DNA from: Termitidicoccus mucosus
GTDB lineage: Bacteria; Verrucomicrobiota; Verrucomicrobiia; Opitutales; Opitutaceae
Assembly: GCF_038725785.1 (NCBI RefSeq)
Contig: NZ_CP109796.1
Span: forward strand, 4,216,001-4,280,000
Reading direction: 5' to 3'
Length of the DNA stretch: 64,000 bases
Shown: one piece after another, positions 58,656-62,905 of the stretch
Layout of the letters: every line of letters begins with the position of its first letter
Numbering within the stretch: position 1 is the stretch's first letter
Position numbers and translations under genes: made by a program
The notes under the pieces: generated by a model
Databases searched by the model: none
Told to the model about the DNA's origin: nothing
The model's input: only the letters and a program-made list of their open reading frames with translations

Positions 58656-60032
58656 TTACTTTTTCACCCCGGCCCGCTCCAGGAGCCATTCGTCGATGGC
58701 GACGTTTTCCTCGGGGATGGTGTTGTGGCCGGTGATGAGGGCGAGGTTCAGCGCCTTCGGGGCTTTTATGACATTATAAGCGGCGAACATCGAGGTGGGC
58801 GGGCAGGTTTCATCGTTGTAGCCCCACGAATAAAGGCCGGGGGCCTTGATGCGGCGGGCGAAGTTGACCGCGTCGTAATAGGCGGTGGTGGCGATCTTGG
58901 CCGGGTTTTGCGCGTGGAAGCCGGCGGTGCCGGTTTTCGAATCGGGACGGAACATGTGCGGCCAGCCGCCCGCGCGGCCGTGCAGGTAGCCGGTCACGTC
59001 GCAGTAAGCCGGATACACGGGCGCGACCGCGGTCACGCGCGGATCGAGGCCGGCGGTGACGAGGGAGAGCTGGCCGCCCTGGCTGCCGCCGGTCACGAGG
59101 AGGTTCTTGCCGTCGTGGTTGGGGAGCGAGAGGAGGTAGTCGTTGGCGCGCACGCAGCCGAGGTAAACGCGGCGGTAGTAGTAGGCGTCCTTGTCGTCGA
59201 GGTTGTAGGCCCAGTAGGCTTTGAGCGCGCCGGTGCGCATCTGGTCGTAGGCGTAGGCGGGCAGGTCGACGGGGATGCCGTGGATGCCGATGTTGAGCGT
59301 GATGACGCCGCGCGAGGCGAGCTCGGTGCTGACGGGCACGTAGGGGCGCACGCCGGCGCCGGGCACGCGGAGGATGGCGGGATAGCTGCCGGGGGCCTTC
59401 GGCTCGCAGAGGATGCCGTAGATGCGGCTGGTGTAGCGGCTGTCGCCGCCGATGACGCGGAAGCTGACGTGGTAAACGTTCACGTCGCTCGTGCAGTATT
59501 CGGGGAGCAGGGTGCGGGTGGGCTCCATCGGCACGGTGGCGAGCTCGGCCTTGCCGGCGTCCCAGAACGCGTCGAAGTCGTCCGGCTGGGCCTGCGTGGG
59601 CTGGATTTTCTCGGGGGAAAAGGCGGCGGTGGCGAGGCCGCGGTAGGTCTTGCCGCCGACCGTGGCGGTGACGATGCAGCGAATCAGGCCGGGCTCCTTC
59701 AGCGTGCCGGCGTCCACGACGAGGCCGCCCGCGGGGACGGCGACGCCGGTTTTCTCGACGGCGGGGGGCATCTGCTCGGGGCCGACCTTGTAGGAGACGG
59801 TCGCGCCGGCGAGCGGGTTGTTGTCGGCGAGCACGCTGATGGTGAATTTCGCGGGCTGGCCGGTCGCGTAGGTCCAGTCGGCGTGGTCGGGCGCGACGAC
59901 GACTTGCACGGTGGCGAGGCGCGCCTGCGCAAACGCGGGCACGGGCTGGACCGGCGAGGCGGCCGGGGCGGCAAAGGCCGCGCTCGCGACGATGGCGAGC
60001 CCGGCGGTGAGGAGGGCGGGTAGTTTTTTCAT
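58656..60032 (-). CDS. Secreted acetyl xylan esterase (AXE1-like), alpha/beta hydrolase
   Basis: A 458-residue protein. It has a signal peptide (MKKLPALLTAGLAIVASAAFA), an N-terminal Ig-like beta domain (about 40-140; VQVVVAPDHADWTY), then an AXE1-type acetyl-esterase domain. The catalytic triad candidates are the Ser in VTGGSQGGQLS (about residue 305), the Asp in NDETCPPTS (about 400) and the His in GHNTIPEEN (about 430). GVRPYVPVSTELASRGVITL and GIPVDL are family-typical. It should deacetylate carbohydrate esters. It is not close to other glycan genes and is flanked by repeats upstream of its stop. Confidence 0.92.
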   Translation of the reverse strand: MKKLPALLTAGLAIVASAAFAAPAASPVQPVPAFAQARLATVQVVVAPDHADWTYATGQPAKFTISVLADNNPLAGATVSYKVGPEQMPPAVEKTGVAVPAGGLVVDAGTLKEPGLIRCIVTATVGGKTYRGLATAAFSPEKIQPTQAQPDDFDAFWDAGKAELATVPMEPTRTLLPEYCTSDVNVYHVSFRVIGGDSRYTSRIYGILCEPKAPGSYPAILRVPGAGVRPYVPVSTELASRGVITLNIGIHGIPVDLPAYAYDQMRTGALKAYWAYNLDDKDAYYYRRVYLGCVRANDYLLSLPNHDGKNLLVTGGSQGGQLSLVTAGLDPRVTAVAPVYPAYCDVTGYLHGRAGGWPHMFRPDSKTGTAGFHAQNPAKIATTAYYDAVNFARRIKAPGLYSWGYNDETCPPTSMFAAYNVIKAPKALNLALITGHNTIPEENVAIDEWLLERAGVKK

Positions 60033-60186
60033 AGGTTATCGCGGATTGTGGGAAAAAGGGGGGCGATGATGCGAAAAAGAAAGGATGTTTTGTTGCAAAG
60101 ATATGGCCGAAGGGGATGTTTGCACGGTTTAGGCTCGCAAGCAGGGTGTTATTTGGAATGCGTTGGCCTCTACTCGCAACACTCAT

Positions 60187-62133
60187 ATGGCCCTTTGGGA
60201 ATACAAAATTATCACCAGCGGCGCTCACGGTTTCGCCAATCCGTCGCTGCTGGAAAAACATCTCAACACACTCGGCAAGGACGAGTGGGAGATCATCCAC
60301 TTTCAAACCCAGCCCGACAATCCCCTCGCTTTCCACGGCCTCGCGCGCCGCTCCACGCAGCGCGACTGGACGCCGCCGGAGACGCCGGCCGCGGCGGCGG
60401 GCGCGCCGCCCAAGCCGGCGGTGTCGCTGTTTGATGCGCCGTCCGCGCCGCCGGCCCAGCCTGCGGTTTCGCAGGCGCCGGCCCAGCCGCCCGCGTCACT
60501 GCCGTCGTCCGCGCCGTCCTCCGCGGATCTGCCCCCGCCGGTCCCGACGCCCGGCAACGCCCCGGCCGGCGTCGCCGCCGACAAGTCCGCCATCCGGCCC
60601 GTCCGCGACACCGAGCGCGACCTCGATCCCGACGCGCAGGACGAGGACGACTCCGCCGACAACGATTGGGACAACCTCGAGGACATGGACGACGACCTGC
60701 CGACATTCTTCGACGCGCTCAAACCCCACTTCCGCCGCAATCCCAAGGGCCCCGGCTCGTCCGTCAGCATCGAGTTTCTCGCCAAACGCTGGGAGCAGCG
60801 CGAGGCCGACCTCGTCGGCGCATTGAAAGAGTGCGGTCTCTCCATCCCGGAAACCGAGGAGGCCGACCCGGAGTATTTCGAGTTCGAGGAAGACCTTTAC
60901 TGGGTAAACCGCAACAACCGCGGCCAGCTTTTCATCAACACCCGCGAAAAACCGCGGCCCGTCTTCCGGGTCGTCCAGGCCACGCCGCTGTCGCCCGACG
61001 ATCCCGCCGCCGCCGAGCTGGCAGCCGAACGCGAGGCCGAGAAAGCCGAGATTGAAAAACGCAAGGCCGAGCGCGCGGCCCGCCAGGCCGCCGCCGAGGC
61101 CGCGGCCGCCGCCCGCGCCGAGGAAGCCGCCAAGCGCCGCGCCGCGCACGAAGCCGCCGCGAAAGAGCGCGGCGAAGCTGATGCCGCCGGTGAGACCGGC
61201 CCGCGTCCCGAACCGGCCCCGGCTGGCGACGACGCGCCGTCCGCAGGCGCCGCCGAGGCCGGCGGGCCGCTGCCCGAAGGCGCGGCGTTGCTTGCCAAAA
61301 TCCGCCCCATGATGCGCCGCAACCGCCGCGGCCCCGGCTACTCCGGCAGCATCGGCTTCCTCGCCCGCGCCTTGCACGAGGAGGAGGAAACGCTTGCCGC
61401 CGCCCTCGCCGCGCTCGGCCTCCACCCGCCGGCGACCGCCGGCGAAAAACCGGTTTTCGTCGAGATCGGAAACGGCCTCTATTGGCTCAACAAAGACAAC
61501 CGCGGCGGCATCTGGATCAACGGACGGGAAAAGAAAGAGCAAAAACCCAGGCTGGACGCCGGGGAGACCAAGGCAAACCCGGAGGCCGCGGCTGAAGAAA
61601 AACCGGGCGCCACCGAAAACGAGGCGCCCGCCTTGCCGGATGCCCCCGCCGCCGAGGAACACGCTGCGGGCGCCGGCACGCCGCCTCCTGCGGCGCCCCG
61701 GCCGGAATCCGAAGCCGCCGCAGCTCCTGAATCGCCCGCCGAAGAATCCGGCGAGCTTCAGCTTCAACTTGAAACCCCGGCCGAAACCGCCGGGGGCTCC
61801 TCCGCGTCGTCGGCCTCCTCCGACAACCTCGCGCTTTCCGCCGTCCGCCTGCTGATGAAGCCCAACAAGCGCGGCAGCGGCGTATCCGGCGAGACCGGCT
61901 TCCTGGCCCGGGCGCTGGACAAGCCCGAGGCCGAGTTCATGGGCACGCTCATCGCGACCGGCCTGGTGGTGCCCGAGGACAGCGGGCAGAAACCGATCTT
62001 TGTCGAGCACGACGGCGAGATTTACTGGTTCAGCAAATACCCGAAGGACGGCACGATCTGGCTCAACGCCAAGCCGGCGAGGTCCGCGGCGAAAAAGAAA
62101 TCCGCCGCCCGCACCCGCGCCAAAAGCAACTGA
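60187..62133 (+). CDS. DUF4177-type protein with three copies of an unrecognised 85-residue domain
   Basis: A 648-residue protein from the ATG at 60187. Residues 1-50 (MALWEYKIITSGAHGFANPS, GKDEWEIIHFQ) look like a DUF4177 domain. Three related units follow at about 171-258, 364-449 and 548-633. Each begins RRNxRGPGxSGSIGFLARAL-like, has L..ALxxxGL, and ends with FVE....LYWLNKDNRGxIWINxREK. They are separated by Ala/Pro/Glu-rich linkers, including a charged helical stretch (REAEKAEIEKRKAERAARQA). The unit's small Trp/Asn end suggests a winged-helix-like fold, but I do not recognise it. No membrane segment. Just upstream of rsmD on the same strand. Confidence 0.88.
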   Translation: MALWEYKIITSGAHGFANPSLLEKHLNTLGKDEWEIIHFQTQPDNPLAFHGLARRSTQRDWTPPETPAAAAGAPPKPAVSLFDAPSAPPAQPAVSQAPAQPPASLPSSAPSSADLPPPVPTPGNAPAGVAADKSAIRPVRDTERDLDPDAQDEDDSADNDWDNLEDMDDDLPTFFDALKPHFRRNPKGPGSSVSIEFLAKRWEQREADLVGALKECGLSIPETEEADPEYFEFEEDLYWVNRNNRGQLFINTREKPRPVFRVVQATPLSPDDPAAAELAAEREAEKAEIEKRKAERAARQAAAEAAAAARAEEAAKRRAAHEAAAKERGEADAAGETGPRPEPAPAGDDAPSAGAAEAGGPLPEGAALLAKIRPMMRRNRRGPGYSGSIGFLARALHEEEETLAAALAALGLHPPATAGEKPVFVEIGNGLYWLNKDNRGGIWINGREKKEQKPRLDAGETKANPEAAAEEKPGATENEAPALPDAPAAEEHAAGAGTPPPAAPRPESEAAAAPESPAEESGELQLQLETPAETAGGSSASSASSDNLALSAVRLLMKPNKRGSGVSGETGFLARALDKPEAEFMGTLIATGLVVPEDSGQKPIFVEHDGEIYWFSKYPKDGTIWLNAKPARSAAKKKSAARTRAKSN

Positions 62134-62157
62134 GAACGCGAGGAGCCGCCCAAAAAA

Positions 62158-62235
62158 TTAACCGCAAAGAGCACAAGGAGCGCAAAGATTGGAGAATATA
62201 GTTTTCTCTGAGTTCCTTGCGTTCTTTGTGGTTAT
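62158..62235. repeat. Inverted repeat, CGCAAAGAGCACAAGG arms
   Basis: TTAACCGCAAAGAGCACAAG pairs with CTTGCGTTCTTTGTGGTTAT. It lies between the DUF4177 gene and rsmD, so it may reduce read-through between them. Confidence 0.85.
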
Positions 62236-62275
62236 AAAACCAGACCCTGAACCGCGGCGAAGCCGTCCTTGAATC

Positions 62276-62905
62276 ATGCGCATCACCGGAGGCATCGCCC
62301 GCGGCATTCCGCTCGCGGTTCCCAAGGGTGACGCGGTGCGCCCGGCGACGGACGGGATGCGCCAAGCGGTTTTTTCGAGCATCGCGTCGCGCGTGCCCGG
62401 CGCGTGGTTTCTCGATCTTTGCGCGGGCAGCGGCGCCTACGGCCTCGAGGCCGTGAGCCGCGGCGCGGCGGGCGGCGTGTTCGTGGAAAAAAACGCGAAG
62501 GCCGCCGCCTGCCTGCGGCGCAACATCGAGGCCGTCGCCCAAAGCGCCGCTGCCGGCTCTTCCGGGAGCGCGGGCATTCCTGCCCGCGACACCGCTCCTC
62601 ACGCTATCGCCGCCCGCCTCGCCATCGCGCAAACCGACGCGCTCACTTGGACACCCGCGCCCGGCGCGCCGCCGCCCGATCTGGTTTTTATCGATCCTCC
62701 CTACGAAATCATCCCGGAATTTGCCCCGCGCATCTTCGCGATGCTGGCCGCGCTCCTCGCGCCGCATCCCGATCCCGTGATCATCTTCGAGATGCCCGGC
62801 GAGCTCACCCTCGCCGCGCCCGCCGGCTGGGAATGCGCCAAACGCCTCGGCAAAGGTGCCCGCCAGCCCACTGCGGCGTTTTATAAAAAGAGCGCGGCCA
62901 TGTAG
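62276..62905 (+). CDS. rsmD: 16S rRNA (guanine966-N2)-methyltransferase
   Basis: A 209-residue RsmD methylating G966 of 16S rRNA. Motifs are MRITGGIARGIPLAVPKG, VRPATDGMRQAVFSSI, FLDLCAGSGAYGLEAVSRGA (SAM-binding) and LVFIDPPYEIIPEF (the catalytic DPPY). An insert, SSGSAGIPARDTAPHAIAAR, sits between the helical region after the SAM motif and the strand before ALTWTP; it is encoded by a palindromic element (62565-62598). The typical enzyme lacks this loop. No partner coaD is adjacent here. Confidence 0.93.
   Translation: MRITGGIARGIPLAVPKGDAVRPATDGMRQAVFSSIASRVPGAWFLDLCAGSGAYGLEAVSRGAAGGVFVEKNAKAAACLRRNIEAVAQSAAAGSSGSAGIPARDTAPHAIAARLAIAQTDALTWTPAPGAPPPDLVFIDPPYEIIPEFAPRIFAMLAALLAPHPDPVIIFEMPGELTLAAPAGWECAKRLGKGARQPTAAFYKKSAAM
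62565..62598. repeat. GGAGC...GCTCC palindromic element inside rsmD
   Basis: The outer GGAGC/GCTCC encloses GCGGGCATTCCTGCCCGC (62570-62587). It shares the architecture and most bases with 690-741. It is translated in frame as SGSAGIPARDTAP within RsmD. Confidence 0.88.

Follow-up and report, generated by a model that had tools for sequence, protein, structure and literature searches.

The window analyzed here comprises 64,000 nucleotides of Termitidicoccus mucosus (contig NZ_CP109796.1, positions 4,216,001 to 4,280,000) and carries, on its forward strand, an open reading frame (60187–62133) that starts with an ATG at 60187, closes with a TGA at 62131–62133, and encodes a protein of 648 amino acids. 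Upstream of this gene, in divergent orientation, lies an AXE1 acetyl xylan esterase, and downstream lies RsmD (Pfam Cons_hypoth95). The protein contains three homologous units of about 89 residues each, separated by long linkers (Table 1). In the preliminary description, the linkers were characterized as Ala/Pro/Glu-rich; this fits linker 2, whereas linker 1, between units 1 and 2, contains a predicted long helix.

Table 1. Features of the gene, its upstream region, and its product, with positions in the window
Feature	Position	Strand	Basis
Whole gene, 648 aa	60187..62133	+	Reading frame; orthologues
Conserved upstream element, 22–59 nt 5' of start codon; weak form in window	60128..60165	+	Alignment of orthologous loci
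N-terminal WEYK domain, residues 1–62, predicted beta-alpha-beta-beta; distant DUF4177/sP36 relative	60187..60372	+	Profiles, model
Acidic linker, residues 63–169, low pLDDT for most part	60373..60693	+	Full-length model; charge count
Unit 1, residues 170–258, acidic	60694..60960	+	Profiles; charge count
Helix of 56 residues predicted in linker 1, residues 273–328, Ala/Glu/Lys/Arg-rich	61003..61170	+	Full-length model
Unit 2, residues 364–452, basic; modelled winged helix, mean pLDDT 90	61276..61542	+	Profiles, model
Linker 2, residues 453–544, Ala/Pro/Glu-rich, low model confidence	61543..61818	+	Full-length model
Unit 3, residues 545–634	61819..62088	+	Profiles, structural alignment
C-terminal tail, short, basic, residues 635–648	62089..62130	+	Translation

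The presence of three copies of one unit, first proposed from the letters of the window, is borne out by profiles that owe nothing to the window. Specifically, single-unit profiles made from the orthologues' first, second, or third units, with the window copies excluded, each match all 3 places in the window protein with 49.5–154.7 bits, while the best scores of the same three profiles in 500 shuffles are 1.2, 3.8, and 4.9 bits. The window's own copies share 39% (copies 1 and 2), 24% (1 and 3), and 40% (2 and 3) identity. The motif originally given for the unit (RRNxRGPG ... GFLARAL ... LYWLNKDNRGxIWIN) fits copy 2, but copies 1 and 3 diverge from it. Across 90 aligned units, the invariant columns are G411, W433, and N445.

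The unit had also been described as unrecognized, and this holds: no profile of Pfam (run on the 90 unit copies, best E 0.0025, and on the window protein), NCBIfam, or PHROGs (run on unit 2 and the whole protein) matches it over the cut-off, and no PDB chain does so significantly. A PDB sequence search with unit 2 returns nothing at E ≤ 10, and the best PDB match of the unit profile (E 0.016) is, going by its name, a designed coiled coil. A search of plasmids for relatives likewise returns nothing at E ≤ 0.001. IF2_N (PF04760) is weakly matched by 8 of the 90 unit sequences (best E 0.0025), and an IF-2 chain in the PDB aligns with positions 25–56 of the unit profile at E 1.1; however, these scores are below any safe threshold and the PDB match spans about one-third of the unit.

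The protein is real, conserved within Opitutaceae, and outside the libraries searched. A protein search of 57 genomes finds it in 28 of 37 Opitutaceae and in 0 of 20 genomes from other families of the order. With a unit profile of 18 rows (A2), matches are found phylum-wide in 21 of 288 genomes, all Opitutaceae, and order-wide in 12 of 132, i.e. 10 Opitutaceae and 2 weak partial matches outside the family (E 0.007 and 0.008). A larger profile of 90 rows (A3) matches 24 of 286 genomes class-wide, including 23 of the 30 listed Opitutaceae and a single genome outside, whose weak and partial match (E 0.0023, 37 positions) is taken as chance. In the A2 and A3 scans, the strong matches listed for each genome fall in one place.

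A scan of a named genome collection confirmed 164 loci, and details were drawn from the best 80 of these, with titles naming Opitutaceae, Opitutia/Opitutae, Opitutus, Ereboglobus, Rariglobus, Verrucomicrobia/Verrucomicrobiia/Verrucomicrobiota, or plain "bacterium." Three units are detected in 73 of these best 80 loci and two in the other 7; with 20 further loci added, the counts become 92 and 8 of 100, some loci being from the same genomes. No account of this protein is apparent among the open-licence papers listed for DUF4177, for sP36, for winged helices in Opitutaceae, for nucleoid-associated proteins in Verrucomicrobia, and for signature proteins.

DUF4177 domains carry a WEYK motif near the N-terminus, and in our set of 58 aligned proteins W4, E5, Y6, and K7 are invariant. 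The DUF4177 domain of the preliminary description survives as a distant resemblance, with 43 of the 58 proteins matching this family (PF13783) at E ≤ 0.05 (best 1e-4), but the window protein itself remains under the threshold (13 bits, E 0.12; gathering cut-off 25 bits). The best curated match of the N-terminus is NCBIfam Sp36_fam (NF053529), which is weakly matched over residues 4–45 with 20.3 bits (E 3.8e-4; cut-off 50); 22 of the 58 proteins match it at E ≤ 0.01, the best value being E 3.8e-4. NF053529 was, judging by its name, built on sP36 of Methanosarcina mazei. Outside Opitutaceae, the N-terminal profile has two matches only among 288 genomes, in frames of 95 and 79 amino acids, and its best PDB match has an E of 0.64.

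Two small proteins are worth comparing. Bacillus subtilis YjzH, a DUF4177 protein, has the same N-terminal WEYK motif and a domain of about 60 residues; it is a protein of 7.7 kDa, listed among unknown proteins from an RNA-bound fraction (PMC12456014), whereas here the domain is fused to three more units and the DUF4177 score stays below the curated cut-off. The likeness to sP36 is a weak profile similarity, and the Sp36_fam score here is far below the cut-off; by contrast with the long protein described here, sP36 has 61 amino acids, acts on AmtB1/GlnK1, forms a stable hexamer by SEC, and is proposed to be an adaptor between AmtB1 and GlnK1 (PMC10714827).

Winged helices have the topology H1-S1-H2-H3-S2-wing-S3. 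The AlphaFold2 model of the unit, built from the 90 aligned copies (the full-length model is separate and comes from the 58 aligned proteins), is predicted to have this topology plus one additional short strand, in the order H-E-H-H-E-E-E (H9-18, E28-31, H32-38, H43-51, E68-70, E73-79, and E85-91). Structure prediction had been suggested as a check, with predicted disorder counting against the reading; the model reaches a pLDDT of 90.4 and a pTM of 0.82, i.e. the unit is not predicted to be disordered.

Foldseek, run with the unit model, finds nothing in the PDB at E ≤ 0.001, and a viral fold search has no match at the same value. VIA-align was run over Foldseek's 1000 best entries, of which 997 were aligned, and yields Z scores for the unit of at most 5.5, in a range where rows less than 1 Z apart are tied and any Z below 8 can reflect a mere common arrangement. 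The top row, at Z 5.5, belongs to a proteasome chain; proteasome/COP9 and ScpB chains are found among the structural matches. Sorted by title and known family, the 50 rows comprise 39 transcription regulators or repressors, TFE-alpha, or Z-alpha/Z-DNA structures (Z 4.2–5.1) and 11 that are other or unclear; the best winged-helix row has a Z of 5.1 with the unit model and of 6.0 with the full-length model. In the latter, unit 3 aligns with rows of this kind up to Z 6.0 (AdcR, 63 residues, 2.5 Å) and unit 2 with three rows of Z-alpha and MarR type (Z 4.6–5.3); no row covers unit 1. Other rows are coiled coils that align with the long helix of the linker, and one, KCTD1, extends over the N-terminus (Z 4.7).

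Because of these ties and of the low Z range, we consider it likely, rather than established, that each predicted unit folds as a divergent winged helix. Among the families that VIA-align lists, the unit resembles MarR/SlyA, ArsR/SmtB/HlyU, and Z-alpha winged helices in its helix/strand order, mostly over 57–70 residues at about 2.5–4 Å and Z 4–6, but differs from them in having no sequence family match to them, an acidic putative recognition helix, a conserved loop (RRNxRGPG) that connects helix 1 to strand 1, and three copies per chain joined by linkers. As the predicted topology and structural alignment look like those of a winged helix, the "novel domain" of the preliminary description stands as a new sequence family, but its fold is probably familiar. 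The architecture that carries this family is unusual.

Among the 90 copies, the basic columns R373 and R377 each have a net charge of +0.97, R447 has +0.91, and R439, which forms the tip of the wing, has +0.90; the loop at 378–381 is conserved and basic as well. The recognition helix of MarR/ArsR-type regulators is polar or basic; in the unit, columns 400–402, which open what we infer to be the recognition helix, are net negative (−0.68, −0.42, and −0.83). In 92 three-unit proteins, the median net charge is −4 for unit 1, +3 for unit 2, +2 for unit 3 (0 for the window's unit 3), −13 for linker residues 63–169, and −18 for the whole protein (range −49 to −3). Histone-like nucleoid proteins are strongly basic overall, unlike this protein. 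Ordinary promoter binding and histone-like DNA binding are therefore disfavored by the acidic putative recognition helix and the acidity of the whole protein.

We also find a conserved element upstream of the gene, which is absent from the preliminary description and is added here. Its consensus, GATTnnGCTCGGCAA-N7/8-GGCATTTGGGATGnnT (about 38 bp), was derived from the upstream DNA of the window and of 80 loci, the best 80 of the 164 orthologous loci, and in 45 of these 80 the CTC box sits at a distance of 58–61 nt to the start codon. Linear and asymmetric, the element has its two main boxes about two helical turns apart, and conservation drops to background on both of its flanks. Scoring of the two boxes (threshold of at least 12 of 17 letters) finds the element in 80 of 81 loci, all but L056, compared with a mean of 2.4 and a maximum of 5 in 20 rounds of letter shuffles and 0 in the reverse complement. 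The commonest shared 8-mer upstream occurs in 60% of the 80 loci (letter shuffles, at most 6 of 80); the corresponding values are 19–33% for four neighboring gene families (18–31 loci) and 31–55% in three smaller sets (11–13 loci), with start codons that are uncertain in all of these comparison sets.

The element is tied to the gene. Among the 36 Opitutaceae genomes common to both searches (G002 is outside this set), 28 have the gene, and a sequence model of the element (R1) matches there in 20 of them with E ≤ 0.01, or in 23 at any E among the rows listed; of the 8 genomes without the gene, 0 have a match anywhere with E ≤ 0.01. R1 was made partly from loci of these genomes, so these counts speak for uniqueness and not for independent discovery. 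The element is degenerate in part of Opitutaceae: of 10 genomes with the gene, 5 have a match to the consensus pattern there when one mismatch is allowed. In the window, the consensus pattern has no match even if 3 mismatches are tolerated, and a pattern made from the letters of the window itself would be expected 0.12 times by chance. In the window's own genome, R1 scores 16.3 bits (E 0.09) at the gene itself, while a stray coding match scores higher (22.5 bits). Given this weak site and the failure of the consensus pattern, the window copy rests on its position and on its alignment with relatives.

From its sequence, we regard the element as a conserved, gene-linked control element and a candidate promoter, operator, or leader. 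Several more specific roles were considered and rejected. For a regulon, the off-gene R1 matches are weak with no second strong copy seen; the best of them (22.5 bits) and its same-genus twin fall inside one coding sequence, recognized by eye as a GH1 beta-glucosidase, and five more stray matches were viewed as short sequence. As to an RNA structure, no base pair (0) is predicted by RNAalifold from 69 sequences of the element; a search of Rfam gives no match for the window at E ≤ 5 and, for L083, two chance-level matches far below the cut-off. A leader peptide (frame LGK...IWDA) was attractive because some changes are synonymous, but this frame has a stop codon directly 5' of the CTC box in 13 of 77 loci and at +30 in 15 of 77, and is open over the element in 49 of 77 loci, compared with 59 and 48 in the other frames. 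No sigma-70 promoter at consensus level is found within 59990–62300. A Shine-Dalgarno-like string lies 5' of the start codon in 8 of the 80 orthologue loci and is absent from 72, with this gene alone being scored.

How could these parts work together? Our best guess, offered tentatively, is an oligomeric, multivalent nucleic-acid binder, perhaps of RNA, that controls its own synthesis. The unit fold, the basic columns, the Sp36_fam/DUF4177 resemblance, and the gene-tied upstream element support it; the low structural Z scores, the acidity of unit 1, of the putative recognition helix, and of the whole protein, an element that is degenerate in part of Opitutaceae and has neither RNA structure nor regulon, and the distance of YjzH and sP36, both below curated cut-offs as relatives, speak against it. 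The beads-on-string architecture was originally read as typical of nucleic-acid or multivalent binding proteins, and such binding by the units is plausible, with evidence both ways that includes the acidic protein and the acidic putative recognition helix.

Under this best guess, the protein would be a multivalent binding protein, presumably cytoplasmic, with an N-terminal domain that may self-assemble by analogy with the hexamer of its distant relative sP36. In a hexameric assembly, each particle would therefore show many winged helices on flexible tethers. These winged helices would bind nucleic acid, RNA being favored over DNA by a small margin, and contact could be made via the wing and the RRNxRGPG loop, which is basic and conserved, with the recognition helix not used. 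RNA-binding proteins often limit their own level, and this protein might do the same via the upstream element. The most detailed form of this proposal, which we consider decidedly unlikely as a whole, is a new lineage-specific nucleic-acid hub. In it, six chains with three winged helices each would form an sP36-like hexamer, so that eighteen of these domains would stand on disordered tethers and bind RNA by loop and wing, not by the recognition helix. The hub would set its own level by binding the linear three-part element, of which the genome has no other strong copy, in its promoter or in its mRNA leader, which in most loci lacks an SD sequence.

A protein–protein scaffold, in which the winged helices would be docking modules and partners would be gathered on tethers, ranks close behind multivalent nucleic-acid binding and is possible, if doubtful. 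Winged helices serve as protein docking modules in PCI proteins and ScpB, and proteasome/COP9 and ScpB chains occur among our structural matches. The acidity of the protein, of unit 1, and of the putative recognition helix is also consistent with docking, as are the invariant G411, W433, and N445, none of which is basic. The distant N-terminal relative, sP36, is itself proposed to be an adaptor between two proteins (PMC10714827). However, the RRNxRGPG loop and the wing arginine are basic and conserved in copies 1 and 2, and the flanks examined contain no constant partner gene; the commonest neighbor family, an alpha/beta hydrolase, is present in 34 of 80 loci.

An unlikely alternative is a transcription regulator that binds DNA and has its own promoter as its main conserved target; between them, its three units would read an AT patch, the CTCGGCAA box, and the CATTTGGGATG box. 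A linear, asymmetric element with this box spacing, which goes together with the gene, would suit such a regulator, but there is no second strong copy, the best off-gene match in the window's own genome falls within coding sequence, the putative recognition helix is acidic, and loci with just two detected units (L053, L062, and L099) retain recognizable forms of all three element parts. An architectural nucleoid protein of a histone-like, tethered kind is very improbable: beads on Ala/Pro/Glu linkers, a basic tail, and a weak match to HC2 in 1 of 58 orthologues (E 0.011) point that way, whereas such proteins are basic and the median net charge here is −18. Least probable of all is an sP36-like adaptor for nitrogen status or at the membrane, whose winged helices would provide the regulatory output; its basis in the best curated N-terminal match is offset by that match's score (20.3 bits against a cut-off of 50), by a link between NF053529 and sP36 that we infer from a name, and by 28 listed neighbor clusters among which no amtB or glnK was recognized (by eye, first 110 residues).

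The protein and its own control element are kept by most Opitutaceae sampled, and the repeated unit is absent from the domain libraries searched. If the units do bind nucleic acid, Verrucomicrobiota would have in this protein a lineage-specific factor acting on RNA or DNA; if they do not, winged helices would have been turned into tethered protein docks. For the best guess, the conserved element offers a direct handle on autoregulation.

Synteny with rsmD, another proposed check, is not kept among the orthologous loci: tblastn with the window's RsmD gives a match in 3 of 80 loci, and in 2 of these the match follows the gene closely; 6 of the 80 have less than 800 nt downstream. The window's esterase is matched in 7 of 80 loci. 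The alpha/beta hydrolase family lies upstream on the same strand, within 120 nt in 25 loci, while two further families lie upstream on the other strand (e.g. L033 4007–4753 and L035 3428–3733), a pseudouridine synthase of RsuA type in 31 of 80 loci and a CRM-domain YhbY in 20 of 80; one example of each of these three families was confirmed with Pfam. A TonB-type receptor, recognized by eye, is present in 18 of 80 loci. The neighborhood resembles a block of chromosome that part of Opitutaceae has in common, not an operon. Between the gene and rsmD in the window lie two opposed imperfect arms of the CCGCAAAGA...CAAAGA type, at 62162–62188 (+) and 62205–62231 (−, 3 mismatches). The repeat finder gave no inverted pair there, a mean of 0.00 is expected in shuffles, and the arm pattern has one occurrence in the genome with up to 2 mismatches.
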